A DNA stretch of 46,995 nucleotides, taken from assembly GCA_944325565.1 (NCBI GenBank), contig CALVAT010000007.1, forward strand, positions 1 to 46,995, read 5' to 3'. The notes beneath the pieces are model-generated. The model did not search any database, was not told where the DNA came from, and saw nothing but the letters and a program-made list of their open reading frames with translations. Below are positions 17,350 through 38,584 of this stretch, piece by piece. How positions within the stretch are numbered: position 1 is the stretch's first letter; each line of letters begins with the position of its first letter. The DNA is from Candidatus Gastranaerophilales bacterium (GTDB lineage Bacteria; Cyanobacteriota; Vampirovibrionia; Gastranaerophilales; Gastranaerophilaceae). The translations under genes were made by a program, and so were the position numbers.

Positions 17350-18195
17350 CTATAAAATCATTAATACATCACGCACGATTTTAGAAACAATAGCAGTTGA
17401 AACCTCACTACTGTCATAATCGGGCGCAAGCTCAACAATATCAGCCCCAACTATATCAAAATTTTTAAGAAACTTAATCCACTGTGCAAGTTCTCTATAC
17501 AACAACCCATCTGGCTCCGGAGTGCCTGTACCCGGTAAAACAGAAGGATCAAGAACATCAACATCAATTGTTAAAAAAACTTTTTTGTCACGAAAAACAT
17601 CAATATCAGAAGAATTATTTACTAAAGTATTAAATCTTTTCATTAGCTCAAATTCTTCTTTCAAACCTGAACGAATACCAATCTGTTTTATATTTTCAAA
17701 ACCGGTAATTTCTCCAATTCTTCTCATTACAGAAGCATGTGAAAGCTTTTCGCCGAGATAATCCTCTCTTAAATCAGTATGAGCATCAAAATGGATAACA
17801 GCGAGATTCGGGTATTTTTCTTTGCAGGCCTTTATTGCAGGTAAAGTTACCAGATGCTCGCCGCCAATACCTAAATACTTTTTATTATCGTTAAAAATAA
17901 TACGTGCATTTTTTTCTATAAGTTCAAGCGATTTATGTGTATTGCCAAGAGGAAATTCGAGCTCTCCAGCATCATAAAACATTACATCATCAAGATGTTT
18001 ATCGAACACTGGCGAGTAATCCTCTAGCCCCCAGCTGGCAAGCCTTAATCTTTCCGGCGCAAATCTGCTACCGGGTCGATAAGAACATGTACCGTCAAAA
18101 GGCAACCCAATCATAACAATCTTTGCTTTGTCATAATTGTCAATAGAACCGATCCAGTTTCTCTGTAGAAAAGGCCCTAACATATTTTCAGACAT
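17350..18195 (-). CDS. speB: Agmatinase / ureohydrolase family enzyme
   Basis: 281 residues. Arginase-superfamily motifs in order: Gly-Gly-Glu-His, Phe-Asp-Ala-His-Thr-Asp, Ser-His-Ala-Ser and Asp-Val-Asp-Val-Leu-Asp-Pro, giving the His and Asp ligands of the binuclear manganese centre. Agmatinase makes putrescine and urea from agmatine. Other ureohydrolases (guanidinobutyrase, arginase) have the same motifs, so the substrate is inferred from overall resemblance. The frame stays open upstream to 18240, which would overlap the PilO-like gene; the ATG at 18195 gives a normal length and starts just after that gene's stop. It probably belongs to the pilMN-pilO transcript or is read through from it. 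Confidence 0.87.
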   Translation of the reverse strand: MSENMLGPFLQRNWIGSIDNYDKAKIVMIGLPFDGTCSYRPGSRFAPERLRLASWGLEDYSPVFDKHLDDVMFYDAGELEFPLGNTHKSLELIEKNARIIFNDNKKYLGIGGEHLVTLPAIKACKEKYPNLAVIHFDAHTDLREDYLGEKLSHASVMRRIGEITGFENIKQIGIRSGLKEEFELMKRFNTLVNNSSDIDVFRDKKVFLTIDVDVLDPSVLPGTGTPEPDGLLYRELAQWIKFLKNFDIVGADIVELAPDYDSSEVSTAIVSKIVRDVLMIL

Positions 18196-18217
18196 ATATT
18201 TAGCCCTATAAGTCCTA

Positions 18218-18883
18218 TTACTGAGCGCCCTGAATTGCACCGGCGGCAGCTGTACCTTCTACGGCCTCATCACCTTGAGTTTCAGCAGCTCTAGCAGCCT
18301 CGTATGCAGCTTTTTGTTCAGCAGTCTTTTCTGCATAAAGGTTTACCTGCACATCTGCAATTAATATTTTTTTATCCCCTTCATAAGGGAAAATACTGAT
18401 TTTATCTAAATTAATCAAATAAGGATAATTTGCAATATCATCAAAATATGATCTGAATTGAGCATAAGAACCGATTAACTGCATTTTTACAGCACAAACG
18501 TTATAATCACTCTGCACATTTTGTGAAACAATATCGTCCGGAGGATTTTGAGCATATTCTATAGAACGAAGTTTTAAACCGTTATATTTAGCAGCCTGAA
18601 TAACATCTTCAAACATAATACCAAAAGAAGCCATTGCATCTAAAGAAGCAACATCTGTTTTATAAACAGGTTTTGTTGAACTTTTTTCTTGCTTTTCATA
18701 AGCTAGCTTCTGGGCTCTTAAAGAATCTATCTCCTTTTGAGTACTTTGCACCTTGGCCTGCTTCTCTTGAATCTGTTTGTATGTATTATAAGAATCATTT
18801 ACTTTAGGTACTATTAAATACAAACCAAAAGCTAAACAAAATAGTATTATTAATATGTACATCAATTTTTGATTATCGTTCAC
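18218..18883 (-). CDS. PilO-like type IV pilus assembly protein
   Basis: 221 residues. One membrane span at about residues 8-26, a coiled-coil segment (about 30-65) and a C-terminal ferredoxin-like domain with the pattern of PilO: a Tyr-Ala-Gln-Phe-Arg-Ser-Tyr turn and alternating strands ending in an Ala/Glu-rich tail. PilO pairs with PilN in the inner-membrane alignment complex that links the cytoplasmic motor to the secretin. It lies 41 bases after the PilM-PilN fusion gene on the same strand, the expected M-N-O order. pilP and pilQ are not in this window. Sequence conservation in PilO is weak, so the call rests on architecture and context. Confidence 0.75.
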   Translation of the reverse strand: MNDNQKLMYILIILFCLAFGLYLIVPKVNDSYNTYKQIQEKQAKVQSTQKEIDSLRAQKLAYEKQEKSSTKPVYKTDVASLDAMASFGIMFEDVIQAAKYNGLKLRSIEYAQNPPDDIVSQNVQSDYNVCAVKMQLIGSYAQFRSYFDDIANYPYLINLDKISIFPYEGDKKILIADVQVNLYAEKTAEQKAAYEAARAAETQGDEAVEGTAAAGAIQGAQ

Positions 18884-18924: not shown

Positions 18925-20577
18925 TTAGGTTGAAGGTAAATTAGCCGGTAATGCAGGAACTTTAGCGTCCTTAATCGGCTTACCATCTTTATCCAATTTT
19001 GGTTTTGCAGCTTCATTCGGGTCTACCAGTTTTACTCCTTTAAATCCGTTATTAGTAAGTTCAAAAGAATAAACAAGATCCTTAGCTACATCAATATCCA
19101 AAATACCACCCTGATCATCAACACTCAAACTTGAGAGTATCAAATCAGATTCAGGTACTTGAGATTTAATATTTCTGAAGAATAAATATACATCATCAAC
19201 CGCAGTAGTTGAACCTTTTATACCATATGCACCGCGTGAATCGGCATAGAAAGAAGTGAGCCAAACCTGAGCCGGTATATCAGCCCCAATTGCATAAAAA
19301 TATTTAACTTTTGCCTGCAATCCAGCATCTATTTTTTTCGCAGCAGTGTATATATCCATACCGGTCTTTGTACGTTGCAATTCTTTTAATTCAGCATCAA
19401 GTGTCTGCTGTTGTGAGTCAAGTTCTGTATTTTGAGTTTGCAATCCGGCAAGATAAGCTTCTACCGCTTTACTTGCACCGAAACAAACAAGAATAATAGC
19501 TACACAAATAATTGATACATAAGCTACCAGCTGCTGTTGAGTAAGATCAAAACCACCTATTCTAATAACATCCGGTGCTTTGTAATCTGTTTTTAGTAAG
19601 AAATTAAGCTTTATTCCAAAATCTTTATAATTGTATATCGCAGCCCCGATTGCTTCCGGAGTAATAGCCTTTACGTAGTGCGGCAGAATATTTAAATCAA
19701 CCGTCAAAATTGAATCCTTGGCATATTGATTACATTCCAGAAACTTCACATCACCTGGCTGATTAAGCTGCATTGCAAGAATTTCAGCACTAACATCGTT
19801 AGATTCACTAACAATCAACAACTTATCGGTAGGGAATCTGTCGAGTACTGTTCTCGCAGACTGAGAAATAGCAACATAAACCTCATCATTATTAAATGAT
19901 TTAATAGCCAGAGGTTCTTCAAAATAATCAATAACACTGTATCCAAGCATAGAGAATACAGCATAACTGTTTTGAGAAACAAGAAGAATGTTCCATCCTC
20001 CATGCGACATTGCAAAATCATCGCCAATCTGAGTATACTGCAAAGTCTTTATCAAAGAAGAATATGTATTTTCAACAGCGATTAAGGTTACACCCAAATC
20101 TGTAAATATCTGTTGAATAACATTTATAACCTCTTCTTGAATAGCAGCATATAAAACACATCGTTTTTCTGTTCTGTTATTTTCTTTTACATCAACCCAG
20201 CTTACAAGCGGCGTATTTTTTTTGAAAAGATAATTTTCTTCAATCGTAGAAATAAGGGCTGTCGTAACACCTTCATCATCCAAAACAGTCGGAAGGAACT
20301 CATGCCCGAAAGCAACACTCGGCAAATTCAAAACTGCTTTAGCATTTTGAGGGAGAATTCTCACTTCATTAAACAAATCCTGAAGGTTTTGTTTAAACTC
20401 TGCATAGTCCTCAATCTCTCTGATAGAAGAATTATAAGGCAGATCTCTTCTTGCATATTTTACAATTTTGTTAGTTGACGGATCTATTTGAATAAGCTCC
20501 AAGCCAACGTTTGGTGACACAGAAATACCAACAGTAACTTTAGTATCCGGTTTAAATTTTGCTAAAAAGTTATTCAT
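18925..20577 (-). CDS. PilM-PilN fusion, type IV pilus inner-membrane complex
   Basis: 550 residues in three parts. Residues 1-335 look like a PilM-type actin-fold ATPase (N-terminal Gly-Ile-Ser-Val-Ser strand-turn and later Gly-rich loops). Residues 350-368 form one membrane span. Residues 370-500 are a coiled coil plus a small alpha/beta domain with the PilN layout, and the Lys/Pro-rich tail is disordered. In most bacteria PilM (cytoplasmic) binds the short N-terminal tail of PilN (membrane). Here they are one polypeptide, which would fix their stoichiometry. A PilO-like gene follows directly. The phosphate-binding loops of the PilM part look weak, so ATP binding is uncertain. Confidence 0.78.
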   Translation of the reverse strand: MNNFLAKFKPDTKVTVGISVSPNVGLELIQIDPSTNKIVKYARRDLPYNSSIREIEDYAEFKQNLQDLFNEVRILPQNAKAVLNLPSVAFGHEFLPTVLDDEGVTTALISTIEENYLFKKNTPLVSWVDVKENNRTEKRCVLYAAIQEEVINVIQQIFTDLGVTLIAVENTYSSLIKTLQYTQIGDDFAMSHGGWNILLVSQNSYAVFSMLGYSVIDYFEEPLAIKSFNNDEVYVAISQSARTVLDRFPTDKLLIVSESNDVSAEILAMQLNQPGDVKFLECNQYAKDSILTVDLNILPHYVKAITPEAIGAAIYNYKDFGIKLNFLLKTDYKAPDVIRIGGFDLTQQQLVAYVSIICVAIILVCFGASKAVEAYLAGLQTQNTELDSQQQTLDAELKELQRTKTGMDIYTAAKKIDAGLQAKVKYFYAIGADIPAQVWLTSFYADSRGAYGIKGSTTAVDDVYLFFRNIKSQVPESDLILSSLSVDDQGGILDIDVAKDLVYSFELTNNGFKGVKLVDPNEAAKPKLDKDGKPIKDAKVPALPANLPST

Positions 20578-36130: not shown

Positions 36131-38584
36131 TCAATTTCCAGACGAGTTATTCTGTTGAACACACAACCGTCTCATATCTCTTTCAAAATTTTTATTAACA
36201 GCATTGTAACGATAAATCTCGTATACATTTCCGTCGCTTGTAATTTTTATTGCGTTGTCTATATCTGTCCTATATACTCTTTGATTATTCTTAGCAAGTA
36301 TTTTCAAAGTTTGTTTTGTCGGATGACCGTATGGGTTTAACCCCGTTGAAATGATTGTTGCGTCAGAGTTGATAGATTTTAACATATTTTTAGAAACAGT
36401 ATTGTTTGCACCGTGATGACCCGATTTTAAGATTTCTATATCATCATTATTTAAATTGTTTTTAATTTTTTCAAAACTCTTTACACCCGCATCGGCCATA
36501 AACAACATATCAAAATCCTTATAAGAAAGAAGTGCCACAGTAGATGTATCATTGTCGCTTTTTGTATTTATATCCGGCGTAAAAGTTTTTATTGTCAGAT
36601 CATTTTCTTCAAAAACAGCCGAATTATTTTGTGCGGTAATGTTGTTAATTTTGTTCTTTTCTAAGTAATTTATTATGGCTTTTGTTGTTTTAGAGTTATC
36701 TTTTTGTTTGTTTAGTACAAGCTTTTTGACCTTTACCGTTTTCATTACATCTATGGCTCCGCCCGAATGGTCAGCATCAAAATGCGTGAGCAATAAAACG
36801 TCAAGAGTTTTAATCCCTCTGTCTTTAAGGTATTTGTTCATTATTGCATCTGCCTGAGAGAAATTTGAAGACACCCCGTCATTAGACCCGTGAGCCGTAT
36901 CAATCATTATATATTTGCTATTCGGGGTTTTTATTAAAAAGCTGTCGGCATTTCCTACATCAAAAACAACTATCTCCAGTTCTTTTCTGTCGATTTTCTT
37001 AAAAGAAACAACAAAAAGCATAAGCAGAATTAAAAGTATGCTCCATGTTTTGCGGTTATTGAATTTTGTTCTTAATGCCAAACCAAATATCACAAGAATG
37101 GAATAATAAATTATTATCTGAAAAATATCAGGATGAGTTGTCGTTAGCAATGCATTAGGAAGATTTGCAAAATAATCAGAAATTTTGATAAGTATTGTCA
37201 CAACCGGATTCAAGACAAATGCAAATGTCATACAGATTTTATCAACAAAAGTATCAACAGGAATCATCGCAAGAATAGAAGATACAAAGCCGACAAAGCT
37301 TATCACAGCAATAAAAGGAGCAATCAAAAAGTTAGCAAGTATTGAATATGTTGCAAAAGAGTTAAAATAAAACATCTGTATCGGGGCAGCCCATAACTGG
37401 GCAATAACAGGTATGAAGATTGCTCCGAGAATAAATTCAACAGCTTTATTTTTAATCTTTTCCAGTACCGGCTGAGCATAAAATATTAACGCAAATGTTA
37501 CAACAAACGAAAGCTGAAACCCTACATCGTTAATCATAGCCGGATTATACAAAAGCATTAAAAATGCAACAAGAAAAACCAAAGACACACTGTTTGCACT
37601 GCGGTCAATAAGTTTCCCGAGTATGATAAATTCAATCATAATAGCCGCACGCAAAACAGACGCCCCCATACCGGTCATAAGTGTATAAAACGCGACAAGC
37701 AATGCCCCTAAAATGACAACAAGACGATGATTTATGCGCAAACGGCAGCCTATAAAATACCAGATTCCGAATATTATAGACACGTTCATACCGGAAGCCG
37801 CCAGTATATGCAGCAAACCTGAATTAATAAAAGAATTTTTTATTTCATCCGGAGGATTTATTGCATCATCGCCGAAAACAATACCGCCAAGCACTTCAAT
37901 ATTAGGACTTTTTATAAATTTTTTATGATGCTCAAGTATATTGTTTCTTGTATCATTCAATTGTTGAAGAAACCTGCCGCCAAAACTATCCGGTTTTGAG
38001 ATAACCTTCCAATTATTATTCGTTACATAAAAGGTAGAAAATACCCGACGGTTTTTAAGATAGTTGGCATAATCAAACTGAGAAGGATTTTTAGCCTTAA
38101 TAGGGCTTCTTAGTTTACCTTTCAGCTCTATTTTATCGGCAATTTTTATTTTGGCTATATTTTCCTGTGTATCGTATAAGGTTACAATTGTTTTTGCTTT
38201 AAGGTTTTCTGCTTTTATATCATTAAATATTCCCGAATCAGGCTTTAAATAAAATTTTGTTTTTGAAGGATTGTTTGTTGTTGGGATAGACGTAACAGTA
38301 CCTGTTATAGAGGCCTTTGAAGGGATAAACTTCGACAGGTCATCATGATTTTTTATTTGTACATGACAGTTAAAAAGCGCAAGCGCAAAGGCAAGATAAC
38401 AGATGATTGCATACCTGTTTGAAACAAAATTTTTAACCAGCGCAAACACTGTAAGCACAAATAAAAATATAGCGATATAAGCCTCGCTATGTGTAAAAAA
38501 GCCTATTACACCGAGTATATAGAACGAAGAAAAAATAACAACTCTGTTTAACGAAATTTTATCAAAATTTTCATCTTTTTCCAT
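36131..38584 (-). CDS. comEC: ComEC/Rec2 DNA uptake channel
   Basis: 817 residues. The N-terminal third has membrane spans and an OB-like domain (DUF4131-type). The central competence domain (about 215-490) has at least six spans and the Ala-Ala-Ser-Gly-Met-Asn motif. The C-terminal third (about 535-800) is a metallo-beta-lactamase domain with Leu-Thr-His-Phe-Asp-Ala-Asp-His-Ser-Gly-Gly and Ser-Gly-His-His-Gly. ComEC forms the inner-membrane channel for transforming DNA, and the MBL domain may degrade the non-transported strand. All three domains are present, so natural competence is plausible with the type IV pilus genes nearby. Confidence 0.94.
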   Translation of the reverse strand: MEKDENFDKISLNRVVIFSSFYILGVIGFFTHSEAYIAIFLFVLTVFALVKNFVSNRYAIICYLAFALALFNCHVQIKNHDDLSKFIPSKASITGTVTSIPTTNNPSKTKFYLKPDSGIFNDIKAENLKAKTIVTLYDTQENIAKIKIADKIELKGKLRSPIKAKNPSQFDYANYLKNRRVFSTFYVTNNNWKVISKPDSFGGRFLQQLNDTRNNILEHHKKFIKSPNIEVLGGIVFGDDAINPPDEIKNSFINSGLLHILAASGMNVSIIFGIWYFIGCRLRINHRLVVILGALLVAFYTLMTGMGASVLRAAIMIEFIILGKLIDRSANSVSLVFLVAFLMLLYNPAMINDVGFQLSFVVTFALIFYAQPVLEKIKNKAVEFILGAIFIPVIAQLWAAPIQMFYFNSFATYSILANFLIAPFIAVISFVGFVSSILAMIPVDTFVDKICMTFAFVLNPVVTILIKISDYFANLPNALLTTTHPDIFQIIIYYSILVIFGLALRTKFNNRKTWSILLILLMLFVVSFKKIDRKELEIVVFDVGNADSFLIKTPNSKYIMIDTAHGSNDGVSSNFSQADAIMNKYLKDRGIKTLDVLLLTHFDADHSGGAIDVMKTVKVKKLVLNKQKDNSKTTKAIINYLEKNKINNITAQNNSAVFEENDLTIKTFTPDINTKSDNDTSTVALLSYKDFDMLFMADAGVKSFEKIKNNLNNDDIEILKSGHHGANNTVSKNMLKSINSDATIISTGLNPYGHPTKQTLKILAKNNQRVYRTDIDNAIKITSDGNVYEIYRYNAVNKNFERDMRRLCVQQNNSSGN

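Follow-up and report, generated by a model that had tools for sequence, protein, structure and literature searches.

A single-chain PilM–PilN protein, probably of a retractable type IV pilus, in Gastranaerophilaceae bacteria

Bacteria of the family Gastranaerophilaceae carry one gene that very probably encodes, joined in a single chain, both the PilM and the PilN of a machine for retractable type IV pili. The lineage is represented here by assembled metagenomes. The gene lies in a stretch of 46,995 nucleotides (hereafter called the window, meaning the whole of the DNA that was analysed) from a draft MAG that is 93% complete and comprises 175 contigs. The protein has an actin-like PilM-type domain, a single membrane span and a PilN-type periplasmic domain. 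This fused architecture is well supported.

Results

The gene and its parts

The gene is one intact open reading frame with an ATG start, and the opposite strand of the same segment is interrupted by many stops. Its conservation in 136 of 146 genomes of the family indicates that it is not a chance frame. The initial annotation had described a PilM-type domain, a single span and a PilN-type periplasmic part in one frame, with a separate PilO-like gene following. Both parts of that description hold: the first is borne out by the open reading frame, a structure prediction, fold comparison and profiles of the two halves, and the second by a match to Pfam PilO. The features are listed here with the evidence for each.

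18925..20577, minus strand: fused pilM–pilN gene, 550 aa plus stop; one open frame, kept across the family
19624..20547, minus strand: PilM-type actin-like cytoplasmic domain, residues 11–318; fold matches and N-half profile
19594..19614, minus strand: PilN-tail-like motif IKLNFLL, residues 322–328; conservation, and alignment with the start of separate PilN
19468..19539, minus strand: single transmembrane segment, about residues 347–370 (limits approximate); hydrophobic stretch in the sequence and helix in the model
19030..19368, minus strand: PilN-type periplasmic domain, residues 404–516; fold, C-half profile and a sub-cut-off match to Pfam PilN
18218..18883, minus strand: PilO-like gene for 221 aa, 41 bases beyond the stop of the fusion; Pfam PilO, E 1.9e-9

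The end of the PilO-like frame overlaps by 23 bases with an agmatinase frame on the minus strand (17350–18240, GTG start), the actual start of which may be further in.

An AlphaFold2 model of the fused protein, built from 45 aligned sequences, has a mean pLDDT of 83.4 and a pTM of 0.62. It places a mixed α/β domain up to about residue 320, then a low-confidence joint (mean pLDDT 79 for residues 321–330 and 56 for residues 331–340), then a long helix (residues 347–402) that contains the hydrophobic span, and finally a small α/β domain. Model and fold comparison together give the protein the same three-part architecture as GspL.

The two halves are related to PilM and PilN

The initial annotation had named a fold other than actin-like in the N-terminal half as something that would refute it; the modelled fold is actin-like. 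The ten best Foldseek matches to the model are all PilM structures (E 5e-17 to 4e-13), with FtsA and the cytoplasmic domains of GspL ranking lower. In VIA-align, PilM structures score Z 23.4 to 18.3, FtsA at most 17.5 and EpsL (GspL) 12.4; the best match is 5eou (Z 23.4, 302 residues, rmsd 4.2 Å), and the PilM structure 2ych scores Z 22.9 (290 residues, 3.8 Å). By both methods, the fold is nearest to solved PilM structures and not to FtsA or GspL.

Sequence models name this half in few members. Pfam PilM_2 (PF11104) has no match in the window protein and none in its genome. It matches five of the 45 aligned members at E ≤ 0.01, and it is over cut-off (38.7 bits) in L177, a fused relative from outside the class. 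Comparison of the window protein with the sequences of solved structures gave no matches, and NCBIfam gave it no sensible name.

The C-terminal half has the features of PilN: a docking tail (internal here), one transmembrane helix and a ferredoxin-like periplasmic domain, this last by a moderate fold match. Pfam PilN (PF05137) matches the window protein below its cut-off (19123–19299, E 0.053) and 32 of the 45 aligned members at E ≤ 0.01. It is over cut-off in the relatives G006 and G024, and in all ten genomes searched from f4–f6, which are among the other families of the class (f2–f6). The periplasmic half, modelled alone (residues 404–516, pLDDT 86.7), finds its top structural match in periplasmic GspL (2w7v, Z 8.1, 80 residues, 2.7 Å), followed by PilO (Z 7.4) and Thermus PilN (4bhq, Z 5.1). 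All these scores are moderate, and a Foldseek search with this half returned nothing under E 0.001 (best E 0.01). By fold score, the periplasmic half is more like periplasmic GspL than Thermus PilN. The window protein has diverged so far that Pfam names neither half over cut-off; their identity rests on homologues, on half profiles and on fold.

The homologues include separate genes. Profiles of the two halves (residues 1–318 and 319–516) match adjoining genes, pilM then pilN, in six genomes of the phylum that lie outside the class (G155, G163, G186, G215, G218 and G225). The N-half profile finds a frame of 367–371 aa (E 3e-6 to 2.5e-9), and the frame after it, of 242–287 aa, is found by the C-half profile (E 4e-7 to 2.5e-15); these E-values refer to a small set of frames, in genomes that were chosen because the whole-protein profile matched them. 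We take these genomes, of families f14, f18 and f25, to be photosynthetic cyanobacteria, on the basis of kinship and their split pil genes only. The homology of the two halves to separate PilM and PilN is strongly supported.

The fused gene also appears to be the only copy. A search of its genome with PF05137 returned the fused gene alone at E ≤ 0.1, and in two 99%-complete relatives (G006 and G024) PilN is found in the fused gene only and no PilM is over cut-off. A hidden second pilM or pilN, which the initial annotation had named as something that would undo the fusion reading, was therefore rejected for all three genomes.

A docking motif is kept at the joint

A few residues after the actin domain, the aligned members carry a motif of the form hydrophobic-x-hydrophobic-N-F-L. 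Residue 325 is Asn in 42 of the 45 members, Asp in two and Ser in one; residue 324 is hydrophobic in all 45 and residue 327 in 44. By entropy, Asn325 ranks 23rd of 518 scored positions, and no other scored position from 314 to 402 is as conserved. In f5, in f2, in five f4 rows of the alignment and in three fused proteins of f7, a family further out, a motif of the N[FL] type is similarly kept. In f3 the Asn is replaced by Asp, and in f6 the pattern is lost.

The motif of PilN is known as INLLP. When the split pairs were joined and aligned with the fused proteins, the start Met of the separate PilN landed a few residues before the fusion motif, and the separate PilN motif aligned with the fusion motif (MHNIDINFLKERK in G186 and others, MKVLKVNLLPPE in G146). 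Moreover, the top fold match (5eou) is a single chain with the molecule names PilM,PilN; it has 372 residues as against 357 for PilM alone, and its alignment with the model extends to 5eou residue 366. Taken together, these alignments make the fusion look like a direct joining of the end of PilM to the start of PilN, with the docking tail kept.

The chain in 5eou is an engineered Pseudomonas aeruginosa PilM:PilN(1–12), in which, as here, the tail is attached where the actin domain ends. Unlike the fused protein, the construct has only the tail of PilN, and according to the title of the entry it is ATP-bound. A passage of PMC5285504 describes P. aeruginosa PilM as clamping the short N-terminus of PilN. 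Because a PilN-tail-like motif is kept inside the fused chain, such a contact can form in cis; from the conservation of the motif and the range of the alignment, we infer that the internal tail still docks in this way. The initial annotation had gone further in proposing that fusion would make the contact permanent, which is an inference.

The nucleotide site is decayed

Two signatures mark the actin-type nucleotide site of PilM: the Asp of GxDI and an SGxGG-type loop. With the motifs defined in this way, neither is found in the fused family. At the position of the GxDI Asp, the 45 members have Ser (33), Ala (8), Thr (3) or Asn (1), and Asp in none. The SGxGG-type loop is replaced, mostly by S-E-T-[DN]. 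Two f7 genomes allow a comparison of forms: their split PilMs have G[LI]DI and SGRGG, and the fused proteins of the same two genomes have GLYI and, for example, VGCDD.

A simple rule that fusion means loss does not follow. Six of six other split PilMs, from outside f7, have Glu in motif 1, and five f4 rows retain D or E in motif 1, with motif 3 partly retained in most; both observations speak against such a rule. In the family studied here, the sequence pattern suggests that ATP binding has probably been lost. The cytoplasmic domain of GspL is not known to bind ATP.

The fused gene travels with a pilus machine

The genome that contains the window has one secretin, on a contig (C59) that also carries a PilB/GspE-type ATPase and a PilC/GspF platform beside it. 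Three PilT-family ATPases in this genome are over the NCBIfam cut-off. Across the same 146 family genomes, the fused gene is present in 136, a secretin in 133 and the PilT family over cut-off in 137 (138 at E ≤ 0.001; in G031 the match reaches this E-value yet stays below cut-off).

The pattern is clean in good-quality genomes, defined as at least 90% complete and at most 5% contaminated (n = 126). Fused gene, secretin and PilT occur together in 120 of these, and all three are absent from the other six (G034, G040, G070, G093, G117 and G132, of genera g34 and g40). All disagreements between the markers fall in genomes under 90% complete: G028 and G069 have secretin and PilT without the fused gene, G081, G083, G085, G106 and G109 have the fused gene without secretin, and in G031 PilT is below cut-off. 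The whole pilus has apparently been lost in genera g34 and g40, where all eight sampled genomes (G034, G093, G113 and G132; G040, G070, G117 and G135) lack fused gene, secretin and PilT. The co-occurrence thus reflects the loss of a whole machine once or twice, which makes few independent events. Because the fused gene comes and goes with secretin and PilT, we assign it to a retractable type IV pilus.

In 51 of 52 family loci, a frame that begins at most 60 bases from the stop of the fused gene encodes a protein with an N-terminal hydrophobic span, of 184–247 aa or, in L022 at a contig end, of 151 aa; L024 has no such neighbour. Four such neighbours were searched in Pfam: those of the window and of f3 match PilO, and those of f2 and f5 have no match. 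In other families of the class, a prepilin peptidase gene (Pfam A24) directly precedes the fused gene in f4 (L181) and f6 (L180), with L186 assigned by likeness only; in f2 (L184) the fused gene follows closely on that for a 357 aa T2SSE-family ATPase resembling PilT.

Twenty family genomes contain a second secretin, in a frame of about 420–470 aa (for example G015:C17:21816-22298) that outscores the one of 600–700 aa. This shorter secretin possibly belongs to another secretion system or to a phage system.

DNA uptake, rather than motility or adhesion, might be the main role of the pilus, a reading that is compatible with the main one and that we regard as somewhat unlikely. In other systems, retraction by PilT serves DNA uptake, and the window itself encodes a ComEC-type DNA uptake channel of 817 aa (36131–38584, minus strand), although this gene lies 15 kb from the pilus genes.

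Much less probable is that the gene is a true GspL, acting in a type II secretion system that secretes via a pseudopilus. A number of observations lean that way. The GspL proteins (EpsL, PulL, XcpY) share with the fused protein an actin-like domain, one transmembrane helix, a ferredoxin-like periplasmic domain and a partner of the PilO/GspM type, the same architecture being described in a part of PMC4471445. The periplasmic half folds most like that of GspL. The secretin and platform of the genome score higher on the GspD and GspF models than on PilQ and PilC, all below cut-offs, and the NCBIfam model of pilus or secretion type that the PilO-like protein matches is GspM, again below cut-off (E 0.0065). 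The nucleotide motifs are degenerate, as in GspL.

Nevertheless, the GspL families themselves are missing. For T2SSL (PF05134), none of 14 genomes has a match at E ≤ 0.1, and GspL_C (PF12693) has none in 13 of the 14, with a sub-cut-off match in G024 (E 0.0036) that is not the fused gene; an Escherichia coli control was positive for both. Neither family is among the matches of the 45 aligned members, 32 of which match PilN. Moreover, the actin-like half is nearer to PilM than to GspL, and the gene co-occurs with PilT, which has no known role in type II secretion. We rejected a true GspL on the ground that the GspL families have no match over cut-off in the 14 genomes, and we retain the reading as PilM and PilN of a pilus.

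Fusion is family-wide

A survey of relatives for fused and split genes, which the initial annotation had proposed, found fusion throughout the family and split pilM–pilN in the six other genomes of the phylum described above. The fused gene is present in 38 of 41 genera of the family. In 132 of the 136 genomes that have it, the best match lists an open frame 542 aa or more in length, although in three of these (G009, G056 and G115) the listed match crosses one or two stops. The other four have shorter pieces (G031, with two pieces on two contigs, G083, G085 and G103). A single frame of 540–615 aa was found in all 58 loci read (L001–L058, where some of L031–L038 repeat counted genomes). An error of assembly or sequencing that joined two genes, conceivable in a draft MAG of 175 contigs, is refuted by these independent assemblies, which include the separate contigs L031–L038, and by the end-to-end alignment of 45 members, and has next to no chance of being correct.

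The fusion appears to extend to other families of the class. PilN-type domains lie in single long frames in f2 (579 aa) and f3 (567 aa), and both half profiles match a 548 aa frame in f5. The PilN half is clear, with a weak or silent N-half profile, in eight f4 genomes (510–537 aa) and in one genome of f6 (444 aa); here, length, a PilN domain at the C-terminus and a single transmembrane span (examined in L180, L181 and L186 only) point to fusion. Across the phylum, the whole-protein profile matches 224 of 386 genomes, and in nine genomes outside the class that were viewed in detail the matches are mostly to single halves.

Three f7 genomes have a fused gene of 500–513 aa. Two of these, G146 and G150, have both a fused gene (510–513 aa) and a split pilM–pilN pair on another contig. 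The C-half match of the fused gene in G146 is weak (E 0.033), and its Pfam PilN score of 21.1 bits is below cut-off.

A tree of 32 rows was built from eight split pairs, 21 fused proteins of the class and the three f7 fused proteins. The eight split pairs fall together on one side of a branch with support 99/97, which 98% of the 200 bootstrap trees recover. Two changes are required for the 21 fused rows from the class, as the split rows join them at one place and the f7 fused rows at another. Branches are very long (f6 2.38, f5 1.8, f3 1.78), and the program warns that long branches meet. We dropped an attempt to root the fusion event and draw no direction from the tree, because an unrooted, long-branched tree cannot separate fusion from later splitting.

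One family genome, G120, has a second short frame of 153 aa with the PilN half only (G120:C9:71515-71790), in addition to its full fusion.

Discussion

We propose that the actin-like half of the fused protein would sit under the membrane as the socket, or 'stator', that receives two kinds of ATPase, PilB for extension and PilT for retraction. The PilN-tail motif inside the chain would dock in cis into a groove of this half. A helix would cross the inner membrane, and the C-terminal domain would pair with PilO and link to the secretin through a putative PilP-like part. The single chain would set PilM:PilN at 1:1.

Because the usual nucleotide-site signatures are gone, the fused protein is probably a permanently PilN-loaded, nucleotide-free stator. 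GspL probably acts as a nucleotide-free stator in type II secretion. We tentatively raise the possibility that the pilus stator became a nucleotide-free single chain, converging on GspL, yet working with PilT. If so, extension and retraction would require neither an ATP cycle of PilM nor the detachment of PilN from it. Moreover, the docking Asn is near-invariant although the halves are tethered, so the PilN tail would do more than tether: it would determine the form of PilM to which the motors bind. A portion of PMC11656802 reports competition between the ATPases of extension and those of retraction for the socket on PilM.

Fusion of PilM and PilN is, as such, already known and is not unprecedented. 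A passage of PMC6916266 reports PilM and PilN of Clostridioides difficile as fused, and one in PMC6143707 names the protein PilMN and lists it with PilO. The C. difficile protein is like the one described here in being a PilM–PilN fusion, but C. difficile is a monoderm, whereas the gene described here occurs with a secretin. The separate PilM and PilN of the six phylum genomes have homologous halves in the same order and an [IV]NFL-type start of PilN; unlike the fused protein, they are encoded by two genes, and VDI and [SA]GxG of the nucleotide site are kept. What is new here is a clade-wide fused member that has kept the docking motif inside the chain and has a decayed nucleotide site.

The Gastranaerophilales are non-photosynthetic gut relatives of cyanobacteria. 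Sections of PMC5877343 describe partial pilus gene sets in earlier genomes of this order and credit a member from termites with pilA, pilB, pilC, pilT and pilD; pilM and pilN are absent from its main text. Our results suggest that PilM, PilN and PilO are nevertheless present in this lineage, in a form that is fused, strongly diverged and for the most part overlooked by family models. Literature titles gave no fused PilMN in Gastranaerophilales among the matches listed, which is weak evidence of absence from print, and literature searches for a PilM–PilN fusion, and for INLLP with PilN, found nothing.

The lineage is a natural version of the fusion that was engineered for crystallography. As such, it would allow a direct test of whether PilM–PilN dissociation, or the nucleotide cycle of PilM, matters for pilus dynamics. 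With both forms present in G146 and G150, split and fused proteins can be compared within one genome. In G150 the split pair is at L176 and the fused gene at L175; in G146 they are at L178 and L177, respectively. On the stretches with the fused genes there is also a gene for a T2SSE-family ATPase (L175) or for a T2SSF platform (L177).
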